Shown one piece after another: positions 4,876 to 57,509 of a DNA stretch of 57,693 nt (its first letter is position 1; each line of letters opens with the position of its first letter). This stretch comes from Oscillospiraceae bacterium (GTDB lineage Bacteria; Bacillota; Clostridia; Oscillospirales; Ruminococcaceae). The position numbers and the translations under genes were made by a program. The notes below the pieces were generated by a model, which saw nothing but the letters and a program-made list of their open reading frames with translations, made no database searches and was not told where the DNA came from. The stretch is taken from NCBI GenBank assembly GCA_017461245.1, contig JAFTYW010000002.1:1-57693 (forward strand), in the 5' to 3' direction.

Positions 4876-4937
4876 CTTTGGCTATCCACAGAAAAAAGCA
4901 AGGCTTATGACTGTTTCTTATAAGGATGTCTTTTAGG

Positions 4938-5125
4938 CCCCCTCTGACGAGGGGGCTGTCATTTTTGAAAAAATGACTGGGGGAGAGAGGGTAAAAATCT
5001 CTCCCTCCGTCAAAATCTGCGATTTTGCCATTTCTCGCTGTGGCTCGGTCACGCCGCGGCTCTGACAGTCCACAGGACTGTCATTCACTCCCGCGTCGCG
5101 CTTCGCTACCCTCGTCAGAGGGAGG
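4938..5125. mobile_element. Gene-less repeat element with CCTCCCTCTGACGAGGG-type ends
   Basis: Both ends carry the motif CCYCCCTCTGACGAGGG in inverted orientation (4938-4955 and 5109-5125). Read on the minus strand, its two parts match the left end (7329-7459) and right end (about 7806-7852) of the DUF559-bearing unit, with the coding part absent. It therefore looks like an internally deleted, MITE-like copy. Confidence 0.7.
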
Positions 5126-5135
5126 CAGATGAAAA

Positions 5136-5160
5136 GGCCAGATTCAATATGAATCTGGCC
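5136..5160 (+). terminator. Hairpin of the CAGATTCA/TGAATCTG type
   Basis: GGCCAGATTCA, loop ATA, TGAATCTGGCC, then TTTAAA. A near-copy of this stem serves as terminator at 20699-20733. The T-run here is short, so terminator activity is uncertain. Confidence 0.5.
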
Positions 5161-5253
5161 TTTAAATATTCTTATAAGAAATGTTCTTAGGCCTTGCTCT
5201 TTTTTACGTTCTTTGTTGTGCCGAAAAATACAAATTTTATAATTAAATATACA

Positions 5254-5282
5254 TTGAATTGTGTGACGACAAACTGTAAAAT
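5254..5282 (+). promoter_or_regulatory. Promoter of the GH30 gene
   Basis: TTGAAT (5254-5259), 17 bases, TAAAAT (5277-5282), 32 bases before the start codon. Confidence 0.6.
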
Positions 5283-5314
5283 GATAAAAAATACAAAAAA
5301 CTTGGCGGTGCATT

Positions 5315-6679
5315 ATGAAGATCAAAGCGTATGTTACAGACCAAAACGGCAAAAGGCTTGAGAAGATTTCGGAAAGCCAAATGCAGTATAAGAACACCGA
5401 TATTATAGAGGAGCAAAATCACCCCGGCGACGTCGAGGCGTTTTTAGTTAATATTCACCCCGATGTTGAGGCGCAGAGCGTCGGAGGCATAGGCGGCGCC
5501 TTTACCGACACCTCGGCGGCGGTCTGGCAGGGTATGCCCGAGGATAAAAAAGAGGAATTTGTAAAGGCTTATTTTGACCGTGAGAGCGGCATAGGCTATA
5601 CGCTCGGCAGGCTCTCTATTGCAAGCTGCGACTTTTCGACTGAGGACTACACCTATGTTACGGAGGGTGACACTACTCTCGAGAGCTTTGACATTTCGCA
5701 CGATAAAAAGGCGGTCTTCCCGCTTATTAAAGCGGCGCAAAAGTATGCCGATCTTACTCTTTTTGCTTCCCCTTGGTCGCCGCCTACTTATATGAAAACT
5801 AACTTAAGCCGCATAGGCGGTCATCTTAAACGCGACTGCTACGCGCTCTGGGCAAAATACTTTAAAAAGTACATCGAAGCCTGTAAAGAGAACGGCATTG
5901 ATATATGGGGCGTAACCATACAGAACGAGCCGCGCCACCATCAGATCTGGGAGTCCTGCCTCTACACCCCCGAGGAAGAAGCTGAGTTTCTCGGTTACCT
6001 CGGAAAAGAGCTTAAGGGCAGCGGCGTTAAGATCCTATGCTATGACCACTGCAGAGAGAGGGTCTACGAGCGCGCCAAGTTTATTTACGAGAGTGAGAAC
6101 GGCAAGTATTGCGACGGAATAGCAAATCACTGGTATTCGGGCGACCATTTCGGCGAGCTTAAGGCGCACTTTGCAAAGTACCCCGACAAGATAAGCGTTG
6201 CCAGCGAGGGCTGCTGCGCTATTACAGGCTCGGGAATAAAGGCAGAGGTCGACCTGCCGCACGCCGAAGCGTACGCTCACGATATCATCGGCTGCTTTAA
6301 TAACGGACTCACCCATTATTGCGATTGGAACATTCTCCTAAACGAGCAGAACGGCCCTTATCATAACCGAGAGGGCAGAGGCTGCAGCGCAGAAGCGCCC
6401 GTTTACTATGACAGAGAGAGCGGCGAGCTTATCTATAGGCTTTCATATTATTACATAGGTCACATCAGCAAGTTTGTAAATAAGGGAGCAAAGGTTATCT
6501 CGTCAAGCTCGTATAGTACCGACCTTGAAAGCGTCGCTTTCAAAAACACCGACGGCAGTATTGTTACCGTTCTTTTAAATAGAACCGACAAGCCGATAGA
6601 TGCGATAATCAGAATAGACGGCGAAATTCAGAGCTTCACCCTCTCACCCCACTCGATTCTGACCGCCGTTATAGAATAA
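5315..6679 (+). CDS. Glycoside hydrolase family 30 (glucosylceramidase-like)
   Basis: A 454-aa protein without a signal peptide, so probably cytoplasmic. The order is a short N-terminal beta segment, a TIM barrel and a C-terminal beta-sandwich, as in GH30. Family marks: GIGGAFTDTSA near residues 58-68, SPWSPP near 152-157, TIQNEP with acid/base Glu at about 205, and ASEG with nucleophile Glu at about 298. GH30 enzymes are retaining hydrolases acting on beta-glucosyl, beta-xylosyl or beta-fucosyl linkages; the substrate here cannot be read from sequence. Start ATG 5315 has a GGCGGTG ribosome site. It is monocistronic, with its own promoter and a strong terminator. Confidence 0.9.
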   Translation: MKIKAYVTDQNGKRLEKISESQMQYKNTDIIEEQNHPGDVEAFLVNIHPDVEAQSVGGIGGAFTDTSAAVWQGMPEDKKEEFVKAYFDRESGIGYTLGRLSIASCDFSTEDYTYVTEGDTTLESFDISHDKKAVFPLIKAAQKYADLTLFASPWSPPTYMKTNLSRIGGHLKRDCYALWAKYFKKYIEACKENGIDIWGVTIQNEPRHHQIWESCLYTPEEEAEFLGYLGKELKGSGVKILCYDHCRERVYERAKFIYESENGKYCDGIANHWYSGDHFGELKAHFAKYPDKISVASEGCCAITGSGIKAEVDLPHAEAYAHDIIGCFNNGLTHYCDWNILLNEQNGPYHNREGRGCSAEAPVYYDRESGELIYRLSYYYIGHISKFVNKGAKVISSSSYSTDLESVAFKNTDGSIVTVLLNRTDKPIDAIIRIDGEIQSFTLSPHSILTAVIE

Positions 6680-6684
6680 AAAAT

Positions 6685-6720
6685 AAGCTCGGGTTTGGAA
6701 TAAACCCGAGCTTTTATTTT
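6685..6720. terminator. Bidirectional terminator between convergent genes
   Basis: Perfect 12-bp stem AAGCTCGGGTTT / AAACCCGAGCTT with a 5-base loop and T-rich flanks on both strands. Confidence 0.9.
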
Positions 6721-6905
6721 TAATATTCTAATTCTTCATAGTGGGCAAGCTGCCTTTGCTTTAGCGCTTCAAGTTCAGAATTGCTTAAAGAAACCGTTAT
6801 ACATTCGGCGCACCCACCAAGGCTGTCTATAGAAATACTATCGAGTATGCATTTGCCCTTTGATTGATAAATGCAATATGTATTTTCACAATTCATTTGT
6901 ATCAC
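6720..6905 (-). CDS. Small Cys-rich protein of unknown function
   Basis: A 61-aa protein with five cysteines, four of them in pairs or spacings suited to metal binding (CENTYC, KGKC, GGCAEC). Short proteins of this look (NCENTYCIYQSKGKCIL) are common in Clostridia but have no function that I know. Its start overlaps the end of the upstream RHH-like gene by 20 bases, so the two are probably translationally coupled. The second Met (MNCENTYC) is an alternative start. The overlapping RHH plus small-protein layout is formally like a toxin-antitoxin pair, but nothing here resembles a known toxin. Confidence 0.6.
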   Translation of the reverse strand: MIQMNCENTYCIYQSKGKCILDSISIDSLGGCAECITVSLSNSELEALKQRQLAHYEELEY

Positions 6906-7068
6906 CGTCTTGGTTTTCTAAAGCGTATTTACAGCATTGAAGCACTAAAAGATTAAATGAAATGTTATTTTCGGTTGCAAGCTGATTTAATTTTTCAAAC
7001 AAAGGTTCAGTAAAACGAATAGTACGAGAAACATTTGCATTTTTATACTCGTTTTCTATTTTAAACAT
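6886..7068 (-). CDS. Small ribbon-helix-helix-like protein
   Basis: A 60-aa protein. VSRTIRFTEPLFEKLNQLATENNISFNLLVLQCCKYALEN fits the Arc/CopG-type ribbon-helix-helix plan: one beta strand followed by two helices. It heads a two-gene unit with the overlapping Cys-rich ORF downstream. DNA binding and autoregulation are inference from the fold. Confidence 0.6.
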   Translation of the reverse strand: MFKIENEYKNANVSRTIRFTEPLFEKLNQLATENNISFNLLVLQCCKYALENQDGDTNEL

Positions 7069-7183
7069 AAGTAAATCACCTATGTTTATACTATAACCTT
7101 AAATGAGTTTTTTATATAACCAAAAACGGTGCTTTTTTGATATCAAAACAGGTGTATATATAGCAAAACAAATATATGATAAT

Positions 7184-7264
7184 TGTAGGGACAGGCCTCC
7201 CGGACTGTCCGTTTGTATGTTCGGCTAACGCCATCGGACAGTTCGTCTGACACCTGTTCCTACA
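7184..7264. repeat. REP/BIME-like paired hairpins (GTAGGG feet)
   Basis: The left arm at 7184-7211 starts TGTAGGGACAGG and holds a GGACAG..CTGTCC stem. The inverted right arm at 7235-7264 ends CCTGTTCCTACA. This arm pair is the closest intergenic relative of the pair inside the two RAYT genes. With the next element it fills most of the gap 7069-7459. Confidence 0.8.
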
Positions 7265-7328
7265 AAATGAAATTATAATATTGTAAATGCATAGAGGAAA
7301 ATCAAGACGAGGACGAAAAATAAAATCG

Positions 7329-7852
7329 CCTCCCTCTGACGAGGGTAGCGCAGCGCCGAACGGTAGTGAATGACAGTCCTGCGGACTGTCAGAGCCGTGA
7401 GGTGACCGAGCCGCAGCGAGAAGTGGATTTTTGCGAAGCAAAAAGACGGAGGGAGAGAAATGAAAAACTATAACAAAAATAACATTCCCCTTGCCAAAAC
7501 CTTGCGAAAAAATATGACTCCTTGGGAACGAAAGTTATGGTATGAGTTTTTGCGACTATACCACGTAAGATTTCAACGACAAAAAGCCATAGGAAATTAT
7601 ATAGTTGATTTTTACTGCGCAAAAGCAAGACTTGTAATTGAACTTGACGGTGGCGGGCATTATACAGATGAACAAATCGAAAGGGATGTAATAAGAACAA
7701 GAGAGTTGGAGGGAATGAAGCTAAGTATAATCTGAGTTTGTAATCTTGATATAGATAATAATTTTAAAGGTGTATGCGAGCATATAGATTTAGTTGTTAA
7801 AAATTCTCTCCCTCAGTCAGCTTCGCTGACAGCTCCCTCGTCAGAGGTAGCC
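7329..7852. mobile_element. DUF559 gene flanked by inverted terminal repeats
   Basis: The left end CCTCCCTCTGACGAGGG (7329-7345) is answered by an inverted right end CCCTCGTCAGAGG (7835-7847). Between them lie hairpin-rich end sequence (7346-7459), the DUF559 reading frame, and a right end whose hairpin CAGTCAGCTTCGCTGACAG is partly coding. The left end supplies the ribosome site (GGAGGGAGAG) just before the ATG. The right end supplies the last codons and the stop. Gene-less relatives are at 4938-5125 and, as fragments, at about 20960-21050 and 21428-21448. Confidence 0.65.
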
Positions 7853-7861
7853 GGAAAATAG
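7460..7861 (+). pseudogene. DUF559/endonuclease-like protein with in-frame stop
   Basis: Start ATG 7460 follows GGAGGGAGAG. The frame reads LAKTLRKNMTPWERKLWYEFLR..FQRQKAIGNYIVDFYC..LVIELDGGGHY, a DUF559 (Vsr-like, PD-(D/E)XK-type) domain with the usual DFYC and ELDGGGH active-site region. A TGA at 7733-7735 stands where relatives usually have Arg in a VIRFSNLD-type motif. Downstream the same frame continues as VCNLDIDNNFKGVCEHIDLVVKNS and then reads into the repeat end to a TAG at 7859-7861. Total length would be 133 codons, the family's normal size. So this is a full-length gene with one nonsense change; the 91-aa product would lack the last strand and helix. Confidence 0.75.
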
Positions 7862-7866
7862 GTGTA

Positions 7867-7897
7867 AAAAGAGCAAGGCATAAAGCCTTGCTCTTTT
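7867..7897. terminator. Terminator, GAGCAAGGC family
   Basis: AAAAGAGCAAGGC, short loop, GCCTTGCTCTTTT. It ends the minus-strand EamA operon and can also work on the plus strand. Confidence 0.85.
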
Positions 7898-8759
7898 ATT
7901 TATTATCCTTAATGAGCAGTACTGTTGCGGCAATCATAATTGCAAGACCGACAACAAACTGCACGGTTATGTTTTCGCCGAGCGCAAGCACGCCAAATGC
8001 CGCACCCAAAAAGGGTGATATAGAATAAAACGCGCTGGTTTTTGCGGCTCCAAGCTTCTTTTGAGCCTTGATATAAAAGTTGATGCTAAGCCCGTAAGAA
8101 ACAAAGCCCAAAAGCAAAATCAAAGGGATAAATGCGACAGGCGGAAAGCTCTCACCCGCCACAAGCGCAACCATAAGACTACCAAGTCCAGAGAAGATGC
8201 CTTTAATGGTGGTGATCTGCACCGAGGATTTTGAGCTGAGGCGGCGGGTGCAGTTGTTCTCTAAGCCCCAGCAGCACGCCGCGGCAAGCACTAAAAGCGA
8301 GCCCCAGTTCAGCTCAAGGCTTTGCGTTCCCTCTAGACTTAAGGTGACGCTCGCAAGCGTTACAAAAACGATTGCCAGCACAAGCCGTTTTGACAGAGCT
8401 TCCTTAAAGATAAAAAATGCAATAAGCGTGGTTGCAACTATCTCAAAGTTGTTAAGCAGCGAGGCGTTTGCCGAGCTTGTGTATCTTAAGCCGAGCATCA
8501 GGAGTATGGGCGCCGCGATGTCAAGAACTATCATACCGATGATGTAGGGCAGCTCCGCCCGAGTTAGCGGCGGCGCGCTTTTCCTCTCGCCACCCAAAAG
8601 TCCGCAGACAAAAAGACCTATTCCCGCCCCAAGATACAAAAACGCCGCCATCATAGTAGGCCCTGCCGACTCAAGCAGCAGCTTGCTTAAGGGAATATTT
8701 ATCGCATAAAGCGCCGCCGCGAGCAGAGCAAGCGCGGTGGCAATATTTTTGTTTTTCAT
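7896..8759 (-). CDS. EamA/DMT-family transporter (last gene of operon)
   Basis: A 287-aa, strongly hydrophobic protein with about ten predicted membrane helices in two five-helix halves, typical of the EamA (drug/metabolite transporter) family. It has the N-terminal pattern ALALLAAALYAINIPLSKLLL and a second-half GFVSYGLSINFYIKAQKKLGAAKTSAFYSISPFLGAAFG. It lies 12 bases after a second EamA gene, and both follow a histidine phosphatase gene in one minus-strand operon. Substrate unknown; members export amino acids, nucleosides or other metabolites. The pair could act as two separate carriers. Confidence 0.85.
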   Translation of the reverse strand: MKNKNIATALALLAAALYAINIPLSKLLLESAGPTMMAAFLYLGAGIGLFVCGLLGGERKSAPPLTRAELPYIIGMIVLDIAAPILLMLGLRYTSSANASLLNNFEIVATTLIAFFIFKEALSKRLVLAIVFVTLASVTLSLEGTQSLELNWGSLLVLAAACCWGLENNCTRRLSSKSSVQITTIKGIFSGLGSLMVALVAGESFPPVAFIPLILLLGFVSYGLSINFYIKAQKKLGAAKTSAFYSISPFLGAAFGVLALGENITVQFVVGLAIMIAATVLLIKDNK

Positions 8760-8771
8760 TTCTGCTTCTCC

Positions 8772-9638
8772 CTATACATTTAAAAAGACAAGCGCTACTG
8801 CGCCAACTGCAAGGCCTGCCCATTCGAGTTTTCCAAGCCTTTCTTTGTAGACAAGAACCGAAAACAGAGTGGTTAAAATCATACCGCCGACTGCAATAAC
8901 AGGGAAAATAACGCTCTCAGACAGGGCCGTGGAGAGCATAAGGATTATAAAATTGTTTAAAAGCGCGCTGCTTATTCCGCTTACAACGGGCAGAACAAGC
9001 GAGCTTTTTGAAAGCATTTTAAAATCAGGCTTTTTGTCCTTCAGATACTTTGCAAGACAGAAGATGGTCGCAAAGCCAATACCGAAAAACATAAGGGTGC
9101 TGCCGTATTTTGTATCAAAAGCTGCCTGCTGGTATTTTTGAATAATGGAGCAGCCTGCGTTTCCGACAAGCAGAAGCAGAGCAAAAACAACCCATTTTAC
9201 CGAGGTTTTAACTGCGTGATTGCGGTCAGGCTTAAAGCAAAGATAAAGCGCAATTACAATCAGCACAAGACCGATTACAACCGTTACTGTAAGCGGCGTT
9301 TTCCAAAATATAAAACCCCAGATTGAAACAGCAATGAGCGAGAGCTGTTTTATAAAAGAGGTTAGTGAAGCCGAGCCGTACTCAAGTGCCTTGAACAGAC
9401 CAATCAGCGCCATTGCGTAAAAAATGCCGTAGGTGGCTGAGTAAAGGATCACCCTTATATCAAAGCTGCCGTCAAGGGCAAAAAATACACCCCAAGTGAC
9501 AAAGGCACTTATCGAAACCAGCAGATTGTAAAACGACGAGGTGTTCTCTGCGCCCCAATTGCGCCTTTTGAAAGCCATATTTACAACACTCATAGCCGCA
9601 GACAAAAGAGCAGCACCGATTAAATATATGTAGTCCAT
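8772..9638 (-). CDS. EamA/DMT-family transporter
   Basis: A 288-aa protein with about ten membrane helices and an EamA-like duplicated layout. The first half is YGIFYAMALIGLFKALEYGSASLTSFIKQLSLIAVSIWG and the second ends with ILTTLFSVLVYKERLGKLEWAGLAVGAVALVFL, the family's closing motif. The start codon abuts the phosphatase stop without a gap, so translation is likely coupled. It is only distantly similar to the neighbouring EamA protein. Substrate unknown. Confidence 0.85.
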   Translation of the reverse strand: MDYIYLIGAALLSAAMSVVNMAFKRRNWGAENTSSFYNLLVSISAFVTWGVFFALDGSFDIRVILYSATYGIFYAMALIGLFKALEYGSASLTSFIKQLSLIAVSIWGFIFWKTPLTVTVVIGLVLIVIALYLCFKPDRNHAVKTSVKWVVFALLLLVGNAGCSIIQKYQQAAFDTKYGSTLMFFGIGFATIFCLAKYLKDKKPDFKMLSKSSLVLPVVSGISSALLNNFIILMLSTALSESVIFPVIAVGGMILTTLFSVLVYKERLGKLEWAGLAVGAVALVFLNV

Positions 9639-10280
9639 TTAGTTAAAACCTACCTCTGATGCCTTTTCTTCAAGATGGTCTGTATAGCCTATCTGAGTAA
9701 GGTTTACATGGTCTGCATCAAAGTACTCTGCAACCGTTACCGACGCATTGGGAACGTGCGGGACTGCGCCAATATCCTCAAGCGAGATACCGAGCCAATG
9801 CGCGCGCAAAACCCTTACAACACCGCCGTGGGTTGCGATGAGGACTGTTTTGCCGTCATTTTCTGCGGCAATTTTTTCTATCGCAGAGAGTGCGCGCTTT
9901 AGCATATCTCCGTAGCTTTCGCCATCGGGGAACTGCGCAATTCCGGGGTTCTGCCTGTAATTTTCAAATGCCTCTTTAAATCTTACCTTAACCTCCTCGA
10001 TAAGCACGCCTGTAAAGGCGCCGACGTCAACCTCGCGAAGCTCCTTGCAGGTGTTTATTTCAAGCCCAAGCGCCTCGGCGCAGGGCTTTGCTGTGTCGTA
10101 AGCTCTAATAAGGTCGCTTGAATAAATAGCATCTATCTTAAAGTTGTCACAAACGTATTTTGCAACAGACTGCGCCTGCTTTTTTCCTGCCGCATCAAGA
10201 GGCACATCCATCTGGCCCGAAAAGCGCTTTTCGCGGTTTCCCTCGCTAAAGCCGTGGCGAACGATTACAAACCTTACCAT
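9639..10280 (-). CDS. Histidine phosphatase family protein (phosphoglycerate-mutase-like)
   Basis: A 213-aa protein. RHGFSEGN at residues 8-15 is the phosphohistidine motif. SSDLIRAYDTA near 54, ELREVDVGAFTG near 82 and ATHGGVVRVL near 148 complete the family's catalytic set (two His, two Arg, one Glu). Such enzymes remove phosphate from small metabolites such as sugar phosphates or cobalamin precursors; the exact substrate is not readable. First gene of the operon with two EamA transporters and divergent from an AraC regulator, which is the likely controller. Confidence 0.88.
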   Translation of the reverse strand: MVRFVIVRHGFSEGNREKRFSGQMDVPLDAAGKKQAQSVAKYVCDNFKIDAIYSSDLIRAYDTAKPCAEALGLEINTCKELREVDVGAFTGVLIEEVKVRFKEAFENYRQNPGIAQFPDGESYGDMLKRALSAIEKIAAENDGKTVLIATHGGVVRVLRAHWLGISLEDIGAVPHVPNASVTVAEYFDADHVNLTQIGYTDHLEEKASEVGFN

Positions 10281-10321
10281 TTTAAACAGCTCCTTTTCCT
10301 ATAAAATTATACAATAACAAA

Positions 10322-10363
10322 AATATACATACAATTGACAAAATTGTCAAAAAGATATACAAT
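10322..10363. promoter_or_regulatory. Back-to-back promoters sharing a palindrome
   Basis: Plus strand: TTGACA (10335-10340), 17 bases, TACAAT (10358-10363). Minus strand: TTGACA (10345-10350), 17 bases, TATATT (10322-10327). The two -35 boxes form one palindrome, TTGACAAAATTGTCAA (10335-10350), so polymerase or a regulator at this site would affect both the AraC gene and the phosphatase/EamA operon. Confidence 0.75.
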
Positions 10364-49324: not shown

Positions 49325-51352
49325 TCAGAATTTGTTTTTCTTTTTAAGGATAAAGATAACTCCGACTGCCGCACCTGCGCCAAAAACAACCGCGCCTACA
49401 GCTATTAAAATAACGGCAATAGGGGAAACGCCGCCGGTGTTTTGGCCTATCTGAGAACTGATGTTCTCGGAGGCGGTGTCGCCCGTAGGCTCGCTTTCGA
49501 TTTCGGTAAGAATGTTGCTTTCAATCTCACTTGCAACGCTCTGGGTTAAAACGCTTGATGTTTTGTTATCCTCGGCTGTTTTGCTTGAGGTTGTAGTCTG
49601 CGCAGGCTTGCTTGAGGCTGCTCCACTGTGATTAGGCTTGCTCGAAACTGTAACTGCAGGCTTGCTTGATTCAGCGGGCTTGCTCGAAACTGTAACTGTA
49701 GGCTTGCTTGAGGTTGTAGCCTGCACAGGATTGTTCGAGGAGGATAACTTGTTATCATCCTCGTAAACCACCTTTACTCTTTCCTCAAGGATGGCTCTTT
49801 GGAGTGATCCACTGAGCTCAACAGTTTCCCAATATTTTTTTGTTCCTTTATAATTTATCACTAAACCTGAACACTTTGAAAAATCGCCGTTTATCGTGCT
49901 GATACTTTCTGGCAAACTCATCTTTTTGATTATTTCACTATCTATTGATACACTAGCGGCATTTGTTAAAATATTTAATTCAACTAAATTTTTACATCCA
50001 ATAAAATTACTGGCACTAAAATTCTCAACACTACTAGGTATAGTTATGCTTGTAAGATTATTGCAACCAACGAAGGCTCCGGCGCCTATATTGGTAACGC
50101 TAGTTGGGATATTTATACTGGTGAGACCGCTACAGTAGCTGAAAGCCCCGCCACCAATACTAGCGACACTTGCGGGAATATTTATACTGGTAAGACCACT
50201 GCAATCACTGAAAGCGTATTTGTCTATACTTTTGACACTGTTGGGAATGGTTATGCGTTTAAGATTTTTGCAAAAATTAAATGCGTTATCAGCTATGCGC
50301 GTTGCATTTGTTATAACAACCTCTTTTAGTGACGAAGGTACGCAACCAGAGTTATATAAATAAGTTCTTCCACCAAACAAATAACCGAAATGAGTGTTTT
50401 GCGTGCCATTCAAAGCGCTTCCAACAAATGGAATGGTTATTTTTTCAAGGCTATCGCAGCCTTTAAATACAGAATTTCCTATGTCTGTAACGCTGTCAGG
50501 AATAGTAACACTTGTAAGACTGCTACAATCTCGAAAAGCACTCTCGCCTATGTCTGTAACGCTATTAGGTATAGTTATGCTTGTAAGGCTTGTGCAGCCA
50601 CTAAAAGCCTCCTGATCTATGTCTGTAACACCATTAGGTATACTTATGCCTGTAAGATTGCTACAATTTCGAAAAGTGCCCTCGCCTATGCGAATAGTGC
50701 TATCTGGGATAGTTACGCTTGTAAGACTGCTGCAACCATAGAACGCATTATTGCCTATGCTTGTAACGCTGTCAGGAATAGTAACGCCTGTAAGTTTATT
50801 GCAGTTATAAAAAGCGTGATTACTTATACTGGTAATACTGTTAGGAATGATTACGTTTGTGAGCTTGTAACATGAATGAAATGCGCCCTGTGCAATGATT
50901 TTAGTCCCGCTTTTTATTATGTAGTTTCCGGAAAGAGAGTCTTTTTTTGCGCAAATTAAATGTTGTCCAATATAAAGAACACCATTTTCCCAGTTTGAAG
51001 AGTTGTTGTAGTACGCAGTGCCAATAAAAGCCTCCTTCCCTATATCTGTAACACTATTAGGAATTGTTATACTGGCCAGTTTAGAACACGAAGCAAAAGC
51101 ATTACTATGTATGCTTGTAACACCATTCTGAATAATTACTTTTGTTATGTGGCTTTTCCATAGGGGATTAGTATTATATTGAGCCATAGCGCCATTTCCT
51201 GAAATTGTTAATGTATCTCCGTCGAGAGTCCAGGTGCAGTCGCCAGTTGTTCCGCTTGTTGTTGCCGCTTTTGCAGGAATATTGAATACTCCAAGTGAGC
51301 AGATTGAGAGCATTAAGCTTATAGATAATACAACTGATAAAATCTTTTTCAT
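49325..51352 (-). CDS. BspA-like leucine-rich-repeat surface protein
   Basis: A 675-aa protein; ATG 51352 with SD GGAGAGGG, so the longer frame upstream, which runs through REP sequence, is excluded. Signal peptide MKKILSVVLSISLMLSICSLGVFNIPAKA; a short beta-rich head (CTWTLDGDTLTISGNGAM); about 12-14 LRR_5 repeats (SITIPNSVTDIGESAFRDCSSLTSV type, about 23 residues each); then a linker with repeated SSKP and TVSSKPA units; and a C-terminal helix VSPIAVILIAVGAVVFGAGAAVGVIFIL with KKKNKF. BspA-type LRR proteins are surface adhesins of gut bacteria. The helix plus basic tail suggests membrane anchoring. Confidence 0.9.
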   Translation of the reverse strand: MKKILSVVLSISLMLSICSLGVFNIPAKAATTSGTTGDCTWTLDGDTLTISGNGAMAQYNTNPLWKSHITKVIIQNGVTSIHSNAFASCSKLASITIPNSVTDIGKEAFIGTAYYNNSSNWENGVLYIGQHLICAKKDSLSGNYIIKSGTKIIAQGAFHSCYKLTNVIIPNSITSISNHAFYNCNKLTGVTIPDSVTSIGNNAFYGCSSLTSVTIPDSTIRIGEGTFRNCSNLTGISIPNGVTDIDQEAFSGCTSLTSITIPNSVTDIGESAFRDCSSLTSVTIPDSVTDIGNSVFKGCDSLEKITIPFVGSALNGTQNTHFGYLFGGRTYLYNSGCVPSSLKEVVITNATRIADNAFNFCKNLKRITIPNSVKSIDKYAFSDCSGLTSINIPASVASIGGGAFSYCSGLTSINIPTSVTNIGAGAFVGCNNLTSITIPSSVENFSASNFIGCKNLVELNILTNAASVSIDSEIIKKMSLPESISTINGDFSKCSGLVINYKGTKKYWETVELSGSLQRAILEERVKVVYEDDNKLSSSNNPVQATTSSKPTVTVSSKPAESSKPAVTVSSKPNHSGAASSKPAQTTTSSKTAEDNKTSSVLTQSVASEIESNILTEIESEPTGDTASENISSQIGQNTGGVSPIAVILIAVGAVVFGAGAAVGVIFILKKKNKF

Positions 51353-51482
51353 TTTTGTTATCCCTCTCCAACTAAAAAGTGCGGCTACCGAAGCGGCCAC
51401 TAGGCTATTTGGTATTTTTAGTTTACAACAAAATTTTACAAAATGCAACAAAAAACAAAGTTGGCGCGTGTTATTGAAATAA

Positions 51483-51553
51483 TGTAGGGGCGACCATTGG
51501 TCGCCCGTTTTTTGTATAGGGCGTATGGCGGGTGAACACTGTTCGCCCCTACG
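51483..51553. repeat. REP/BIME-like pair, array unit 1
   Basis: TGTAGGGGCGACC..GGTCGCCCG and the inverted GGGTGAACACTGTTCGCCCCTACG.. arm. First of five pairs between the LRR gene and rpe; the array fills most of the gap 51353-52089. Confidence 0.8.
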
Positions 51554-51579
51554 GAGTATTTCGAGCGTTGGTGCTACAT

Positions 51580-51645
51580 TGTAGGGCGCGACCTGCGTGT
51601 CGTGCCGCAAAACAAAACGGAACGACACATAGGTCGTTCCCTACG
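51580..51645. repeat. REP/BIME-like pair, array unit 2
   Basis: TGTAGGGCGCGAC..GTCGTGCC; opposite arm GGAACGAC..GTCGTTCCCTACG. The arms have different stems. Confidence 0.8.
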
Positions 51646-51858: not shown

Positions 51859-51935
51859 TGTAGGGGGCGATGCCCACATCGCCCCGAAAATAGATGTGGG
51901 TAATTAGCGGGCGGATGTGGGCATCCGCCCCTACA
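51859..51935. repeat. REP/BIME-like pair, array unit 5
   Basis: TGTAGGGGGCGATG..CATCGCCCCG; opposite arm GGGCGGATGTGGGCATCCGC then CCCTACA. Confidence 0.8.
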
Positions 51936-52089: not shown

Positions 52090-52737
52090 ATGTATATAGT
52101 TTCGCCATCCATCCTCGCCAGCGATTTTTCAAAGCTCGGTTGCGAGGCAGAGGCTGTTTATAACGCGGGAGCACAGTGGCTCCATATAGACGTAATGGAC
52201 GGGCATTTTGTCCCCAACATTACCCTCGGTGCAGATATCGTTAGATCCATAAGACCTCATTCAAAGGCCTTTTTTGACGTTCATCTTATGATAGACGACC
52301 CGCTTTTTTATGCCGAAAGATTTGCCCAGGCGGGAGCAGAGCTTATAACCTTTCATATTGAGGCGCCCTGCGATATAGAGAAAACCATCAGCAAAATAAA
52401 GGAGCTTGGCGTAAAGGTCGGCATTTCGTTAAAGCCCAAAACTCCCGCCGAGGCGATTGCGCCGTACCTTAAGGATATCGACCTTGTTTTAGTTATGACG
52501 GTCGAGCCGGGTTTTGGCGGACAGAAGTTTATGGCGGATATGCTCCCCAAAATAGCCGAGCTTAAAAAGATGATAGACGAGAGCGGAAAAGATATTCTTA
52601 TACAGGTCGACGGCGGAATTGACAAAAACACCGCCCCGCTTGTAAAAGAGGCGGGAGCTACTGTGCTTGTTGCAGGCTCGTCGGTTTTCCGCAGCAACGA
52701 TTATAAAGAGGCAATAGACAGCCTCAAAAATGCTTAA
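52090..52737 (+). CDS. rpe: Ribulose-phosphate 3-epimerase
   Basis: A 215-aa TIM-barrel protein with all family marks: SPSILASDFSKLGCEAEA, WLHIDVMDGHFVPNITLG (metal His/Asp), HLMIDDP, KPKTPAE, VMTVEPGFGGQKF and VDGGIDKNTA. It interconverts ribulose 5-phosphate and xylulose 5-phosphate in the pentose phosphate pathway. SD TTGGAGG. It heads the operon with the Rnf-like genes, 24 bases upstream of rnfC; no functional link is obvious. Confidence 0.95.
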   Translation: MYIVSPSILASDFSKLGCEAEAVYNAGAQWLHIDVMDGHFVPNITLGADIVRSIRPHSKAFFDVHLMIDDPLFYAERFAQAGAELITFHIEAPCDIEKTISKIKELGVKVGISLKPKTPAEAIAPYLKDIDLVLVMTVEPGFGGQKFMADMLPKIAELKKMIDESGKDILIQVDGGIDKNTAPLVKEAGATVLVAGSSVFRSNDYKEAIDSLKNA

Positions 52738-52761: not shown

Positions 52762-54027
52762 ATGCGTAGGCTAACCAGCCGAGGACTCTATCTTGAGCAG
52801 TTTAAAGAACCTGCAATTTCCTCGCCTATTGATAGTTTTTTTGACGTAAAAACCGTTTTTCTGCCGGTGTCAAGCGAGCTTTGCGTTTCGGCAAACCAGC
52901 AGCTTGATTGCGGCCAGCTAATATCCCGTGGAATTTATCCCGATTCTATTGACTCATTTGCATCGGTCAAGGGAACTGCGGCAGCCATTGGTGAATTTAA
53001 ATTCGAAAAATTTGAGGGACAGAGCTTTATGCAGCTTGATGCTGATAAGGACTTTGTGGCAACAAGCTTTGAGGAAATTGAACCAAGAGAGCTTACTGAT
53101 GATGAGATCATGTATGCCGCCACCGAGTGTGGAATTTTAAATACCACAGACAAAAGAACCCTTGCTGAGATCTTAGAGCAGTACAAGGGCGGTGTTAAAA
53201 ATCTCGTCATTGACGCGGTTGACGACGAGCCTTATGTCAGCAGCAGAATTTCTCAGCTCCTCTGCCGCACAAAATATATTCCACACGCCATTAAGGCGTT
53301 AAACCGCCTTTTCGGTGCCAAGAATATTCATATCGAGGCTTACGGAAGAAACGGAGATGTTTCTGTCCGCATTCCCCAGAGCGTCGGCAGGTATGCAGTC
53401 AAGGCCTCGCTTGAGGTCTATCCCGTTTCAAGAATGCTGCAGAGCGACGACGATACCGTTTATATTGACATCGGCGCACTTCTCAGCTTTTATTACTCGG
53501 CTATTACCCATAAGCCCTACACCAACACCGTTGTAACGGTGGCGGGTGACTGTGTTAAGAAAAGCCGAAACGTTGAGGTGCCTATCGGAACCTCTATAGG
53601 CGACATTTTAAACTTCTGCGGTCTTAGAAAAAAGCCTGCCCTTATAGTCTTAGGCGGAAGTATGACAGGCTACAGTGTTGACGGAACAGATATTCCTGTC
53701 TTAAAATCGACAAAGGCAATTCTGGCATTCACAGAGGAGCCTGAGTTTGAAACCACTACCTGCGTCGGTTGCGGAAGATGCATAGACGTTTGCCCGCAAA
53801 AACTGCTTCCGTACTACATTTACAGCTATTATCTTGACAATAATATTGAAAAGCTTTACAGACTTTCGGCAGATAAATGCACCGAGTGCGGTTGCTGTTC
53901 CTATATATGTCCCGCCAAGATTGATTTGAGGCAGTATGTGAAACTATCAAGAAGAACGCTACTTAAGGAGATGTGGCAAAATGAACAGGACAGTCAAAAT
54001 AACCAAAGCGCCCTTTCTGAGAAATAG
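52762..54027 (+). CDS. RnfC-like iron-sulphur protein lacking the usual nucleotide/flavin loop
   Basis: A 421-aa protein. The C-terminal half has two intact 4Fe-4S motifs: Cys 334/337/340/344 and 373/376/379/383 (CVGCGRCIDVCP and CTECGCCSYICP). The middle SLBB-like part is present (TVAGDCVKKSRNVEVPIGTSIGDIL). At residues 121-135, where RnfC normally has a glycine-rich GxGGAGFPTHxK loop, the sequence is TECGILNTTDKRTLA. The later NGAECEPY motif is DAVDDEPY (151-158). So NADH oxidation via FMN seems lost, while electron relay by the clusters may remain. The 3' end overlaps rnfD by 47 bases. SD GAGGTG. Confidence 0.8.
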   Translation: MRRLTSRGLYLEQFKEPAISSPIDSFFDVKTVFLPVSSELCVSANQQLDCGQLISRGIYPDSIDSFASVKGTAAAIGEFKFEKFEGQSFMQLDADKDFVATSFEEIEPRELTDDEIMYAATECGILNTTDKRTLAEILEQYKGGVKNLVIDAVDDEPYVSSRISQLLCRTKYIPHAIKALNRLFGAKNIHIEAYGRNGDVSVRIPQSVGRYAVKASLEVYPVSRMLQSDDDTVYIDIGALLSFYYSAITHKPYTNTVVTVAGDCVKKSRNVEVPIGTSIGDILNFCGLRKKPALIVLGGSMTGYSVDGTDIPVLKSTKAILAFTEEPEFETTTCVGCGRCIDVCPQKLLPYYIYSYYLDNNIEKLYRLSADKCTECGCCSYICPAKIDLRQYVKLSRRTLLKEMWQNEQDSQNNQSALSEK

Positions 54028-55018
54028 CGGCACTGTTCAGTCGCTGATGTTCGATATGCTGGTCGCAATGGCGTTTGTTTATATGATGCCTATCTTTTTC
54101 TACGGCTTCAGGGTTCTTAAAAACCTTGTAGTATCCCTTGCCGTTTGCTATTTTGCCGACCTGCTTGTCAGAAGAATAAGGGACGGGAAGTATAATTTCC
54201 TTGACTTTTCGCCGCTTGTGACGGGTGCGATCCTGCCGCTTCTTTTTCCCGCGTCGATCGATATCGGGATAATCGTAATTGCAGACCTGTTTGCAATTTT
54301 AGTGGTCAAGCACCCCTTCGGCGGACTGGGCAACAACCCCTTTAACCCCGCCGCCGCGGCATTCTGCTTTGCGGCAATTTCCTGGTCAGATAAGGTGTTT
54401 GCCTATACCAAGCCTATGCAGTGGCTCAGTGTATTCGGCTCGGTTTCCGAGAACGTGAGATTTTACGAAACAAGCGCTAAGAGCCTGGGCCAAGGCGGAA
54501 AACCGCTCTTTGACTTTTTTGATGTGCTTGTAGGTAACACTCCCGGCGCGGCAGGTGCAACAAGCGTTATAGTAATTTTAGCCGCAGGAGCCTACCTTTT
54601 GTATCGCAAGGCACTAAGCGTTCAGATCTCGGCAGGCGTGCTTATCGGCGCGTCGGTTTTCGCTCTTGTTTTCCCCAGAGCTTCGATAAATGTTTTTGAG
54701 GCTCTTTGGTTTGAGATAACCTCGGGCGTGCTTATCTTCGGCGCTGTCTTTATGGCGACCGAGCCTGTTACAAGCTGTAAGCACCCCTATGCAAAGTGGA
54801 TATACGGTCTTTCGATAGGCGTTCTCACAATGCTTTTCAGACATTTTGGAAAGATGGAGATCGCATTTCCGTTTGCTCTGCTTATCGCAAACTCATTTAC
54901 ACCGTTCCTTGATAAGATCGGTACGGGCATTGACAGATACACGGACCTGACCCCTCGACTTTCCAAAGAGGAAAGACAGGCAGAAAAGCAAAAGGGAGGG
55001 GCAGAAAATGAAGCGTAA
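53981..55018 (+). CDS. RnfD-like membrane subunit
   Basis: A 345-aa protein with about nine membrane helices; the RnfD/NqrB core is clear (GKYNFLDFSPLVTGAILPLLFPASIDIGIIVIADLFAILVVKHPFGGLGNNPFNPAAAAFCF; GNTPGAAGATSVIVILAAGAYLLYRK; GAVFMATEPVTSC). Where family members carry the flavin-attachment motif SGATPL, the sequence here is YETSAKSLGQ (about 162-171), without the Thr in place. SD AAGGAG inside the end of rnfC; its own end overlaps rnfE by 11 bases, so no rnfG lies between. Confidence 0.8.
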   Translation: MNRTVKITKAPFLRNSGTVQSLMFDMLVAMAFVYMMPIFFYGFRVLKNLVVSLAVCYFADLLVRRIRDGKYNFLDFSPLVTGAILPLLFPASIDIGIIVIADLFAILVVKHPFGGLGNNPFNPAAAAFCFAAISWSDKVFAYTKPMQWLSVFGSVSENVRFYETSAKSLGQGGKPLFDFFDVLVGNTPGAAGATSVIVILAAGAYLLYRKALSVQISAGVLIGASVFALVFPRASINVFEALWFEITSGVLIFGAVFMATEPVTSCKHPYAKWIYGLSIGVLTMLFRHFGKMEIAFPFALLIANSFTPFLDKIGTGIDRYTDLTPRLSKEERQAEKQKGGAENEA

Positions 55019-55661
55019 ACAAAAAAACAAGCTGTTTTTAAAGGCCGAAAAAGGCGTTTTAACGGCGGTTAAAAAGCTTATTTTGGAAAATCCCATTCTT
55101 ATAAGCGGTCTGTCGCTTGGCCCCGTTGTTGCGATAAGCCAGAGCCTTAAGGCAGGCGTTTCGCTTTCGGTTGCCTTTGCAATCATTATCGTTCCCGTTC
55201 TGGTGCTTTTTGCGGTAAACCCTATAAAGATTCCCAAAAGCATCCGTGTTATCCTTTGCGCCCTGCTCTCGAGCCTGTTTTTCATTCCTGCTTTCTGGTT
55301 TGCTAAAAACATATTCCCCGAGGTCAGTGACAAGGTCGGCGTTTTTCTTCCGCTGATGGTTGTAAACCCCATCATCACCGCTCATTCGGGCGAGGCGGTT
55401 AGGGACAAGCGCCCGCTCAGAAGCTTGATTGACGGACTTATCACAACCGTCGGCTTCTCCCTTGTAATGATCTTCGTTTCTGCCATAAGAGAGATACTCG
55501 GCAAAGGCACTATCTGGGATAAGCCTATCGGCAATATGCAGAGGAACATTTCCTTCCTCTTGCCTTTTATGGGCTTTATAATTGTCGGCCTGCTTGCCGC
55601 GGGCGCGAGAAGGCTCTCGATGCTTCTCCAAAATAAAGAGAAAGGGGAGAGCGCTAAATGA
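55008..55661 (+). CDS. RnfE-like membrane subunit without cluster cysteines
   Basis: A 217-aa protein with six predicted helices and the RnfE outline (NPILISGLSLGPVVAISQSLKAG; GVFLPLMVVNPIITAHSGEAV; FVSAIREILGKGTIW). The two Cys that normally bind the intramembrane 2Fe-2S cluster are replaced: Gly at about 38 in the GLCP position (SLGP), and Pro at about 121 in the VNC position (VVNP). It shares four bases (ATGA) with the rnfA start. Membrane. Confidence 0.8.
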   Translation: MKRKQKNKLFLKAEKGVLTAVKKLILENPILISGLSLGPVVAISQSLKAGVSLSVAFAIIIVPVLVLFAVNPIKIPKSIRVILCALLSSLFFIPAFWFAKNIFPEVSDKVGVFLPLMVVNPIITAHSGEAVRDKRPLRSLIDGLITTVGFSLVMIFVSAIREILGKGTIWDKPIGNMQRNISFLLPFMGFIIVGLLAAGARRLSMLLQNKEKGESAK

Positions 55662-56269
55662 TGCAGTTTTTGTTTGATTTCTTTATAGCCGCAGTCGCGG
55701 CGGTGTTTATTGAAAACACCATTTTCACAAGAGGTCTCGGCGCCAGCCGAATGCTTATGGCGGTAAAGACCCCGAGAACAATGTTCAAATTCAGCATTAT
55801 GCTGACCTCTATTACGACCCTTTCGGGCCTGCTTGGCTGGGGTGTAAACCTGCTTATAAGAAAAAGTCCTATAAGGCTTTATATCGAGCCGCTGGTTTTT
55901 GTAATAGTTCTTATCGCGGTTTATGTTATCTACAGCGTCGTTCTGTATTTCGTTTTGCCCCAATCCTATCGCAAAATGAGCGAAATTCTGCTGCTTGCAG
56001 TTTTTAACTGTGCCGCTCTCGGTGCAATACTCCTGCCCGCGCACAACTCGGTTATAAGCGCCGAGGTTTCGCTCGCTTCCTGGCTCGGCTTTTCTTTTGG
56101 AACGGGCGTTGCATTCTTCTTGGCAACCGTTCTGGTCTTTGAGGGAACGAGAAAACTGAGAGGAACGCAGGTTCCTGCTGCCTTCAGAGGCCTTCCTGCA
56201 ACACTTATTTATATTGGTATACTGTCCCTTGCGTTTTACGGTCTAATCGGGCACGAGCTGCCCTTCTAA
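55658..56269 (+). CDS. RnfA-like membrane subunit with one of two cluster cysteines
   Basis: A 203-aa protein with six helices and the inverted-topology relationship to RnfE usual for the pair. The first half reads FIENTIFTRGLGASRMLMAVKT, where RnfA normally has NNFVLSRFLGICPFLG: Ser at about 30 replaces Cys. The second half keeps VFNCAALG (Cys 118). RnfB should follow in a standard operon but does not; a DUF4015-like gene comes next, 25 bases on. Confidence 0.8.
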   Translation: MMQFLFDFFIAAVAAVFIENTIFTRGLGASRMLMAVKTPRTMFKFSIMLTSITTLSGLLGWGVNLLIRKSPIRLYIEPLVFVIVLIAVYVIYSVVLYFVLPQSYRKMSEILLLAVFNCAALGAILLPAHNSVISAEVSLASWLGFSFGTGVAFFLATVLVFEGTRKLRGTQVPAAFRGLPATLIYIGILSLAFYGLIGHELPF

Positions 56270-56294: not shown

Positions 56295-57509
56295 TTGAGA
56301 TCCCGCAGAAATAAGGGTGTAAAAATTCAAAAATACGATAGGATATTTGATAGCTCATCTCGCCGCAGAAACAGAAAGATAAAAAATGCCGTGGTCTCTG
56401 TTTTGGTGATTGCGCTGCTGATTTTTGTCGGCTACAGCATTTCGGGCCCGCTTGTAAATCTCTTTAAGGGAGAAAAGACCGAGCGCCCTAATAGTAGTTC
56501 GTCGCAGGTGTTATCTGCGTCATCGGTTTCGTCCTCGATATCAAAAGTCGAGCCCGAAGTAGAGCAGGTCGACCTAAAGATAGCCTACCTGCCGCTCGAA
56601 GTTGCAAAAAATGCAGAAAATCTCTCGGCTTATCTTGAAAAAGTAAAGTCTTTGGGTTATAATGCAGTTGTTTTGAGCCTAAAGGATGAGGACGGCACGA
56701 TTTACTACAAAACCACTAACGAAATGGCAATTTCGGTTGGAGCGGTATCTACTGCCGCTATTGAAAACCTTTCTGAAATCGTCACAAAGATAAAGGGTGC
56801 TTCGCTTATCCCTGTTGCAGAGATAAACGCTTTCAAGGATAAGATCGCAACCAAGAATGCCGATGCAAAAATTCAGTATGCAGGGCAGGAGGGCTGGAGT
56901 TGGCTTGATGCCGAAAACGGCAAGCCTTGGCTCAATCCTTACAGCGATGCGGCGCAAGGCTATGTTACGGCGCTCGCCTGCGAGCTTGCCCAGCTTGGCT
57001 TTGAAAACGTTATGGTTTCGAGTGTAATGTTCCCGTCTGTGTTTAGGCTTGTTTCTACAAACTTCGGACCGCTTGAGGCAACCGTTTCGCACAAGGACAT
57101 TTTAAGTCAGTACACTGCTGACTTGAAAACTGCCTTAAACGATAAGGGCGCAAAGCTCATCCTTTCCTACAATGCCGCATCTGCATTGCAGGAGGATAAT
57201 GTTATCTACGGCGGAGCCGATCCCAAAACCTTCTCGGCGGATATATATGTTGCACAGGTCGGTGCTGATGTCGTCAGCTTCTCTAACGAGAGTCAAGTAG
57301 AGGGCGAGCCGACGCAAAAAGATAAAATTGACGTTTTTGTCGAGCAGACCCTTGAGGACAACAGAGAAAGAAAAATTATTATTGCAGTTACTCTCCCAAG
57401 CGGAGAAAATGCACCCGCAGTTACAAAAGAACAGATAGATTCTGTTAAAAATGCCATCACAGACTGCGGTTATTATTTCCTTGATAAAAGCGGAAACTAC
57501 GTAGGTTGA
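56295..57509 (+). CDS. Membrane-anchored DUF4015-type putative glycoside hydrolase
   Basis: A 404-aa protein; TTG start at 56295 with SD GGGGAG. A basic N-terminus is followed by a membrane helix (AVVSVLVIALLIFVGYSISGPLV, about 33-55), a Ser-rich linker and a TIM-barrel-like domain with LSAYLEKVKSLGYNAVVLSLKDEDGTIYY, LIPVAEINAFKD, GWSWLDAENGKPWLNPYSDAAQGYVTALACELAQLGFENVMVSSVMFP and KLILSYNAASA. This fits the DUF4015 putative glycosyl-hydrolase family. It is likely extracytoplasmic, facing the wall. It is last in the rpe-rnf-like run before an Ldh2-type gene. Confidence 0.75.
   Translation: MRSRRNKGVKIQKYDRIFDSSSRRRNRKIKNAVVSVLVIALLIFVGYSISGPLVNLFKGEKTERPNSSSSQVLSASSVSSSISKVEPEVEQVDLKIAYLPLEVAKNAENLSAYLEKVKSLGYNAVVLSLKDEDGTIYYKTTNEMAISVGAVSTAAIENLSEIVTKIKGASLIPVAEINAFKDKIATKNADAKIQYAGQEGWSWLDAENGKPWLNPYSDAAQGYVTALACELAQLGFENVMVSSVMFPSVFRLVSTNFGPLEATVSHKDILSQYTADLKTALNDKGAKLILSYNAASALQEDNVIYGGADPKTFSADIYVAQVGADVVSFSNESQVEGEPTQKDKIDVFVEQTLEDNRERKIIIAVTLPSGENAPAVTKEQIDSVKNAITDCGYYFLDKSGNYVG

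Follow-up and report, generated by a model that had tools for sequence, protein, structure and literature searches.

An intact Rnf-derived operon of Oscillospiraceae and related families without the parts of the ferredoxin:NAD+ pump

The presence of rnf genes is usually taken as a sign of ion-pumping energy conservation, which raises the question of what an intact and widespread rnf-type gene set may be doing when the parts needed for that activity are missing from it. Such a set lies in a stretch of 57,693 nucleotides, referred to below as the window, from an Oscillospiraceae bacterium (GenBank assembly GCA_017461245.1, contig JAFTYW010000002.1, positions 1 to 57,693). It consists of four forward-strand genes coding for variant forms of RnfC (52762-54027, 421 amino acids (aa)), RnfD (53981-55018, 345 aa), RnfE (55008-55661, 217 aa) and RnfA (55658-56269, 203 aa). 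An open reading frame check of the window found all four frames open and intact on one strand, overlapping by 47 bases (C/D), 11 bases (D/E) and 4 bases (E/A). Profile searches placed D in the Pfam family NQR2_RnfD_RnfE (6e-75), E and A in Rnf-Nqr (6e-30 and 1e-20) and C in the NCBIfam model rnfC (8e-52), all four scoring under the NCBIfam cut-offs for the respective Rnf subunits. Comparison with the chains of solved Rnf complexes using phmmer gave best E-values of 4e-38 for C, 4e-36 for D, 4e-12 for E and 5e-12 for A. Judged by sequence, the relationship of each of the four to a true Rnf subunit is clear but distant.

We consider it highly probable that this operon cannot function as a ferredoxin:NAD+ (nicotinamide adenine dinucleotide) ion pump, because RnfB, the [2Fe-2S] ligands, RnfG together with the flavin mononucleotide (FMN) site of RnfD, and the FMN/NAD+ loop of RnfC have all been lost. 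Single-sequence phmmer searches gave no match to RnfG or RnfB in the window or in any of 59 variant loci of its family. The family sample was built from a search of the window's RnfD against 197 genomes, 186 of which had a match (136 with at least two RnfD matches and 50 with one, counted by eye and untyped, with split matches possible). Sixty loci were taken from the RnfD ranking, as the best match per genome from 581 down to 140 bits and thus not at random, and the 59 family variant loci are 58 fetched ones plus the window, each with D, E and A. Two loci of reduced genomes with D and no adjacent E or A (L086 and L092) were left out of the 59-locus counts, and L039 and L007, from an Oscillospiraceae metagenome-assembled genome, seem to be one and the same contig. 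Variant C is present in 42 of the 59 loci, so that counts for C are out of 42, and 12 further variant loci, taken from f5 and other families of the order, bring the total to 71. As controls we used canonical sets of the family (18 for E and A, 21 for D and 20 for C) and 28 canonical sets from outside f1; the C and D controls include L099, L100 and L109, which have D and G (with C in L099 and L100) and no E or A in the fetched stretch. Variants were found in six family-level groups of the window's order (f1, f5, f90, f94, f98 and f105). When the best 30 matches of a class-wide search were typed, 7 were variants, all within the order, and 23 were canonical; lower-scoring variants may occur outside the order.

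The places of the four [2Fe-2S] cluster cysteines are occupied in the window by Gly38 (55119-55121) and Pro121 (55368-55370) of RnfE and by Ser30 (55745-55747) and Cys118 (56009-56011) of RnfA, the last being the sole ligand retained. None of the 59 family variants has a cysteine at any of the first three positions, and 37 have it at the fourth, where it is missing in the other 22; all 18 canonical sets have cysteine at all four. The corresponding counts among the 12 other-family variants are 2, 0, 0 and 4, the two at the first position coming from L152 and L154 (f5, both C-less). At most one ligand per locus is retained in all 71 variant loci. A shift of the ligands, or misalignment, was rejected by these 71-locus counts and by a search for cysteines within 4 residues of each position, since such cysteines accompanied more than two of the four positions in 0/59 variants and all four in 18/18 canonical sets; L153 has a cysteine two residues off the first RnfA position. 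In canonical loci outside f1 the ligands are present in 28, 27, 27 and 28 of the 28, all four together in 27. The exception is L176 (genome G288, f3; 4887-10350), which has a full rnfCDGEAB with one ligand position of RnfE and one of RnfA occupied by Gly, and a cysteine one residue from the lost position in RnfA. Its genome gave four Rnf-Nqr profile matches, and L176 is possibly a half-way form.

The flavin sites of RnfD and RnfC show the same pattern of loss. Alignment puts the lost FMN-attachment motif of RnfD at residues 158-170 (54452-54490), where the variants carry another sequence, and no SGATPL-type flavin motif occurs in the window. The Arg and the Glu of this site are each found in 0/59 variants and in 21/21 canonical proteins, while the Thr that carries FMN, also 21/21 in canonical RnfD, is replaced in most variants (Ser in 34, Gly in 12, Thr in 6 of 59). 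A loose flavinylation pattern was matched in two variants, far from the attachment place. In the window's RnfC, TECGILNTTDKRTLA stands where the GxGGAGFPT loop is expected, the lost loop having its place at residues 121-134 (53122-53163). This glycine loop is present in none of the 42 variant C proteins versus 19 of 20 canonical ones, and most relatives of the window's RnfC have there a conserved stretch of their own, DExDGxxLxxK (D in 37, E in 36, D in 40, G in 37, L in 40 and K in 36 of 42). An earlier note, made from the letters of this stretch, had described the order C-D-E-A with an 11-base D/E overlap and neither rnfG nor rnfB, a replaced RnfC loop, an RnfD lacking the SGATPL-type site, and Gly, Pro and Ser at the cluster cysteines of RnfE and RnfA. 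All of these observations were borne out by the reading frames, by phmmer and by the alignments, in which the losses proved real and not a matter of ligands in shifted positions.

The weight of these losses can be seen in Acetobacterium woodii, where mutation of the [2Fe-2S] cysteines, of the RnfG flavin residues or of the RnfD riboflavin residues has been reported to abolish both autotrophic growth and ferredoxin-dependent NAD+ reduction (PMC11889175). The window's own genome (88% complete) carries a complete canonical rnfCDGEAB with apbE upstream on another contig, C54. Its sole FMN_bind match is the canonical RnfG of that contig, and no stray RnfG that could serve the variant operon was found in it. 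The second full operon for which the earlier note had proposed to look is thus present and no stray rnfG was found, but besides the canonical RnfB the genome has a second PF04060 (FeS) protein, in a 423-aa frame on contig C46 (G000:C46:12346-12441).

Phylogenetic analysis placed the variants apart from the pump. In a careful tree of D+E+A (51 rows), 23 variants and 28 canonical sets were split by a 100/100 branch, and a quick, larger D tree (81 rows) separated 34 variants from 47 canonical sequences at 99. One ancient origin of the variant fits because that 100/100 branch parts it from the canonical sets, and from sequence comparison the operon may accordingly be seen as a paralogue of Rnf that arose once and diverged long ago. 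In the deepest variants, L179 (f98) and L153 (f94), the operon contains neither RnfG nor RnfB. In the D+E+A tree, the f1 and f5 canonical copies cluster with the two sequences that lie outside the order. In the simplest reading, an ancestral rpe-rnfCDGEAB-DUF4015 locus would have given rise to the stripped form, and the f1 and f5 pump would come from a different rnf lineage. The operon is also under constraint. Between the window and L007, the ratio of nonsynonymous to synonymous substitution rates (dN/dS) was 0.16 for C, 0.14 for D, 0.12 for E and 0.10 for A, and 0.16 and 0.14 for the flanking DUF4015 and rpe genes, values that are rough as dS exceeded 1. Furthermore, the variants have near-invariant residues of their own, among them RnfA Arg25 (98%), RnfD Glu245 (97%) and RnfC Ser160 (100%; window numbering).

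The variant and canonical complexes can exist apart, because genomes with only one or only the other were both found. G760 (f5, 2 contigs, 99% complete) has the variant set only, together with an ApbE, and no canonical Rnf, FMN_bind or PF04060 protein was found in it. Likewise, five reduced genomes of the family (88-97% complete) gave no canonical Rnf, ApbE or FMN_bind. Each of four of these (G068, G087, G160 and G174; 0.7-0.9 Mb) has a single variant RnfD along with a single Rnf-Nqr protein, of the E type in the three that were typed; in these three D and E lie on different contigs among unrelated genes, and in all four no RnfA was found, nor any RnfC beyond weak Fe-S matches. The fifth, G102 (1.0 Mb), has kept C, D and E together, along with an additional untyped Rnf-Nqr protein. 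Conversely, only canonical Rnf was seen in the typed family genomes G005, G063 and G113. In the smallest genomes, the stripped complex was the one retained. A 383-384 aa protein is encoded directly upstream of the lone variant RnfD in L092 (8043-9194) and L086 (8144-9298), with a weak polysialyltransferase match, below the cut-off, in L092.

Part of the redox equipment has been kept. The two [4Fe-4S] motifs of the window's RnfC, CVGCGRCIDVC (C334-C344; 53761-53793) and CTECGCCSYIC (C373-C383; 53878-53910), have all eight of their cysteines present in 42/42 variant C proteins. Besides, RnfD has retained a riboflavin-site Asn that was overlooked in the earlier note's picture of this subunit. Asn122 (54344-54346) corresponds to Asn123 of A. 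woodii RnfD and Asn124 of Clostridium tetanomorphum RnfD, and Glu261 (54761-54763) to their Asp249 and Asp248, respectively, residues assigned to riboflavin in PMC11889175 and PMC9588780. The Asn is present in 55 of the 59 family variants, and the acidic position of this putative riboflavin site is Asp in 44 and Glu in 12 (together 56/59). The electron path of Rnf has a step of 11.7 Å between riboflavin and the nearer of the RnfC clusters (PMC9588780). The surviving redox parts, if any, would then be the cytosolic end of the old electron path, namely riboflavin and two [4Fe-4S] clusters assembled on RnfC.

RnfC itself is missing from some lineages. Because 17 of the 59 family loci have no variant C, the core function does not depend on its clusters. 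Relocation of variant RnfC to another place in these 17 genomes was rejected, as the best matches to a variant-C profile were of the canonical kind by score and coverage: they reached 140-196 bits, began at model positions 73-94 and resembled canonical RnfC of genomes with both forms (by score and coverage, not typed singly), and variant C itself scored 391-507 bits in three control genomes. G075, which has a C-less locus, gave a second weak RnfC match of 77 bits. Where C is present in the family loci, the riboflavin Asn is found in 42/42 and a nearby Thr in 41/42, versus 13/17 and 8/17 where it is missing; in a wider set the site is intact in 47 of 51 loci with C and 12 of 25 without. The Asn column of C-less loci shows S, E and S in three f5 loci, S in the f105 locus and N in four reduced genomes.

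On sequence grounds, the variant is neither a ferredoxin:NAD pump nor a decaying remnant, and in variant-only genomes it is no accessory of Rnf. It is probable that the membrane core was rebuilt to do something else. This agrees with the earlier note, whose suggestion of an Rnf-derived membrane complex reworked for another task is well supported by the clade-wide losses, the constraint and the independence of canonical Rnf. The best explanation overall, to which we give somewhat less than an even chance, is that a stripped Rnf paralogue now serves as the body of a transporter or channel, under redox gating in members with C. The retained part is the membrane body, formed by RnfD and the inverted RnfE/RnfA pair; RnfD/NqrB has been described as kin of ammonium and urea transporters (PMC12174285, PMC9588780). 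This body may now carry small solutes or ions, whether passively or with a gradient. In lineages that still have RnfC, the two [4Fe-4S] clusters of that subunit and the adjacent RnfD riboflavin pocket could act as a short redox switch on the cytosolic side and gate the body, and lineages without RnfC would run it ungated. Taken together, solute or ion transport, gating by RnfC and riboflavin, and ungated C-less lineages make up a more tentative proposal. Held just as tentatively is its evolutionary form, in which the D-E core, usually with A, would be a transporter or channel without electron transfer that predates the split of several families and survives in minimal genomes lacking the pump, C-containing lineages adding a riboflavin/[4Fe-4S] gate. 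As for the earlier note's idea that the complex may move ions or serve in transport, the RnfC clusters acting as a sensor or an anchor, the cysteines conserved in every variant C favour it but the 17 loci without C do not, and it is kept here as a suggestion.

Several observations weigh against a transporter or channel gated in this manner. The A. woodii study, in its account of ion translocation, sees no Na+ path in RnfD and places Na+ transport in RnfA/E (PMC11889175), and in the RnfA columns where all 18 canonical sets have Gln85, Glu88 and Thr111, that residue is retained in about 2%, 0% and 0% of variants. RnfE Arg67 (43/59), RnfE Leu103 (42/59) and RnfA Asn112 (53/59) are mostly retained. 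If ions move, the arrangement differs from that of A. woodii Rnf. The A/E pair is not universal either, with one Rnf-Nqr protein and no RnfA found in the four smallest genomes, and the C-less f5 loci L152 and L154 still have one RnfE cluster cysteine. In addition, the tie between RnfC and the riboflavin site rests on about five changes. Four C-less reduced genomes retain the site and four C-containing loci have it altered; the f5 locus L165 has His at the Asn column. A coupled loss of RnfC and the riboflavin pocket was rejected: the raw single-residue association is strong, but it is non-significant on the tree (independent pairs), and we treat the coupling as a hint.

The surroundings of the operon are well conserved. 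The rpe gene (52090-52737, forward strand) ends 24 bases upstream of C in the window and lies upstream in 58/59 loci, within 150 bases in 25 of the 58. Downstream of RnfA, a DUF4015 gene (56295-57509, forward strand) codes for a 404-aa protein with one strong hydrophobic segment near its N-terminus and another, weak, at 239-255; it is found in 58/59 loci, within 150 bases in 54 of the 58. The order D-E-A is identical in all 59 loci, laid out as rpe-C-D-E-A-DUF4015 in 41, rpe-D-E-A-DUF4015 in 16, rpe-D-E-A in one and C-D-E-A-DUF4015, cut by the stretch end, in one. The recurrence across related genomes that the earlier note had proposed to check, of C-D-E-A with the same losses and DUF4015, was thus found, with C in 42 of the 59. 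The DUF4015 link is real but not specific to the variant, as 9 of the 28 canonical rnf operons from outside f1 likewise have DUF4015 behind them, with rpe in front as well in one case (another of the 28, L156, ends before DUF4015 could show). DUF4015 was found at 0/21 canonical f1 loci, several of whose stretches are short. Six f5 loci (L151, L152 and L165-L168) have D-E-A, five of them with C, and no DUF4015 in the fetched stretch. Loss of a catalytic-type Asp of DUF4015 alongside Rnf was considered and rejected, the residue being present in 6/9 canonical-linked copies and variable among variant-linked ones.

In 30 loci an opposite-strand gene, which we take to be unrelated, lies between rpe and C or D; by likeness it is presumably a MecA-type adaptor. 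More distant neighbour genes vary and gave no functional clue. Redox control by Rex was also rejected, since the best candidate sites ahead of rpe in 58 loci and ahead of C or D in 59 loci nearly all scored like single-base shuffles; one C-less locus, L080, has a 12/14 Rex-like site unmatched by 100 shuffles. A Rex site at rpe has been predicted in Caproicibacterium (PMC9600882). Upstream of canonical rnfC, Rex-like sites of 12-13/14 bases, unmatched by 100 single-base shuffles each, were seen in L181, L175, L170 and L188. Other features of the window are a gene for an IS200-type Y1 transposase (PF01797; 48750-49256, forward strand), a reverse-strand frame of 767 aa with BspA-type leucine-rich repeats (LRR_5; 49325-51628) and an inverted repeat with 9-base arms upstream of rpe (51909-51930), which has one match in the window and lies about 3 kb from the transposase; the repeat and the transposase are possibly a REP-element pair. 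Among the canonical controls, a third Rnf-like set, C-D-G with no E or A in the fetched stretch, occurs in L099 (1996-4000, genome G073) and L100 (1253-4118, G014), and D-G of such a set was seen in L109 (from 4212, G036), likewise with no E or A in the stretch. A membrane-like protein of 157-166 aa follows G in L099 and L100, G073 and G014 have three RnfD matches each, and the C-D-G set could be a one-way electron exporter.

Other explanations of the variant complex account for part of these data. It could still be a redox enzyme, in which electrons from a cytosolic donor would pass through the RnfC clusters and RnfD riboflavin to a membrane or cytosolic acceptor with no membrane crossing. 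The full set of cluster cysteines and the riboflavin Asn found in every C-containing family locus would be explained in this way, and RnfD-like relatives without the flavinylated Thr are thought to hold a non-covalent flavin (PMC10979944). Yet the FMN/NAD loop has gone from all variant C proteins, no extracellular carrier is found alongside, and the 17 loci that keep D-E-A without variant C belong to genomes whose only RnfC matches are of the canonical kind, which leaves a redox enzyme unlikely. The close and nearly constant DUF4015 gene would suit a scaffolding role in the membrane, with the Rnf fold as a mere platform to anchor or position the DUF4015 envelope protein. This we regard as improbable, given that the DUF4015 link, shared with canonical operons, may be inherited, that the six f5 loci have no DUF4015 in the fetched stretch, and that D and E lie apart among unrelated genes in three reduced genomes.

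The remaining explanations tie the variant to the canonical pump or deny it any function. An assembly factor, regulator or spare-part pool for canonical Rnf would agree with the two forms found in the window's genome and with the 136 of 197 family genomes having at least two RnfD matches, but G760 and the five reduced genomes have the variant only, and three family genomes do with canonical Rnf alone, so that this role is largely refuted and very unlikely. We see even less likelihood in a flavin exporter supplying ApbE for flavinylation of canonical RnfG and RnfD outside the cell. RnfD does bind flavin in true Rnf, ApbE is encoded upstream of canonical rnf in the window's genome and even the variant-only G760 has an ApbE, but the five reduced variant-bearing genomes, in which no ApbE or FMN_bind was found, refute it for those genomes. 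Finally, the many canonical invariant residues that were lost might suggest a decaying duplicate without function. This is refuted, with practically no probability left to it, by the open frames, the dN/dS of 0.10-0.16, the constant D-E-A order and the subunits kept in genomes of 0.7-0.9 Mb without canonical Rnf, in line with the earlier note, which had also argued that this was not decay.

A transporter or channel body derived from Rnf, our preferred explanation, would have relatives among known systems and differ from each. By its composition, the variant is of the Rnf/Nqr kind and is not itself an Rnf complex. With RnfCDGEAB (C. tetanomorphum, 7ZC6; A. woodii, 9ERI) it shares homologues of C, D, E and A, their gene order, the two RnfC [4Fe-4S] motifs and the riboflavin-site Asn of RnfD, and it differs in being without G, B, the [2Fe-2S] ligand set, the RnfD FMN site and the RnfC FMN/NAD loop. 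Na+-NQR (NqrA-F) is described as a paralogue that goes back to the duplication of an rnf operon and has since lost RnfB (PMC12174285, PMC4014512). It kept the membrane [2Fe-2S] cluster and flavins, with NqrA lacking the RnfC cofactors, whereas the variant shows the reverse. No NqrC-type (FMN_bind) subunit was found in G760 or the five reduced genomes, and the window's genome has only the canonical RnfG. The NQR/RNF-like flavinylation systems of Meheust et al. (2021) likewise have an RnfD/NqrB-like protein without the flavinylated Thr (PMC10979944, PMC8238504), but in them an RnfD-like domain, fused to a NAD-binding domain, is paired with an RnfG-like flavoprotein, and the variant has neither; the window's RnfD matches PF03116 only, with no fused PF00175 domain. 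A D-E-A set is also known from Faecalibacterium duncaniae, in which rnfDEA (CG447_09840-830) and rnfCDGEAB have been named two putative rnf operons of the pump (PMC10781979). The f5 loci L152, L154 and L164 likewise have D-E-A and no C, a likeness by gene content. PMC10781979 was the sole paper found in a text search for 'rnfDEA', and a literature search, mostly at the level of listings, gave no other report of a stripped or repurposed Rnf.

All these data bear on how rnf genes are read in genomes, as at least one paper counts a set of the same gene content, the Faecalibacterium rnfDEA, as part of the pump. The variant also speaks, as an experiment of nature, to the disputed question of whether the way of ions through the membrane lies in RnfA/E or in RnfD, since here the [2Fe-2S] cluster and the flavin arm were lost in evolution and the membrane body stayed. 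With a substrate identified, it would become clear what the Rnf fold is able to do without electrons.

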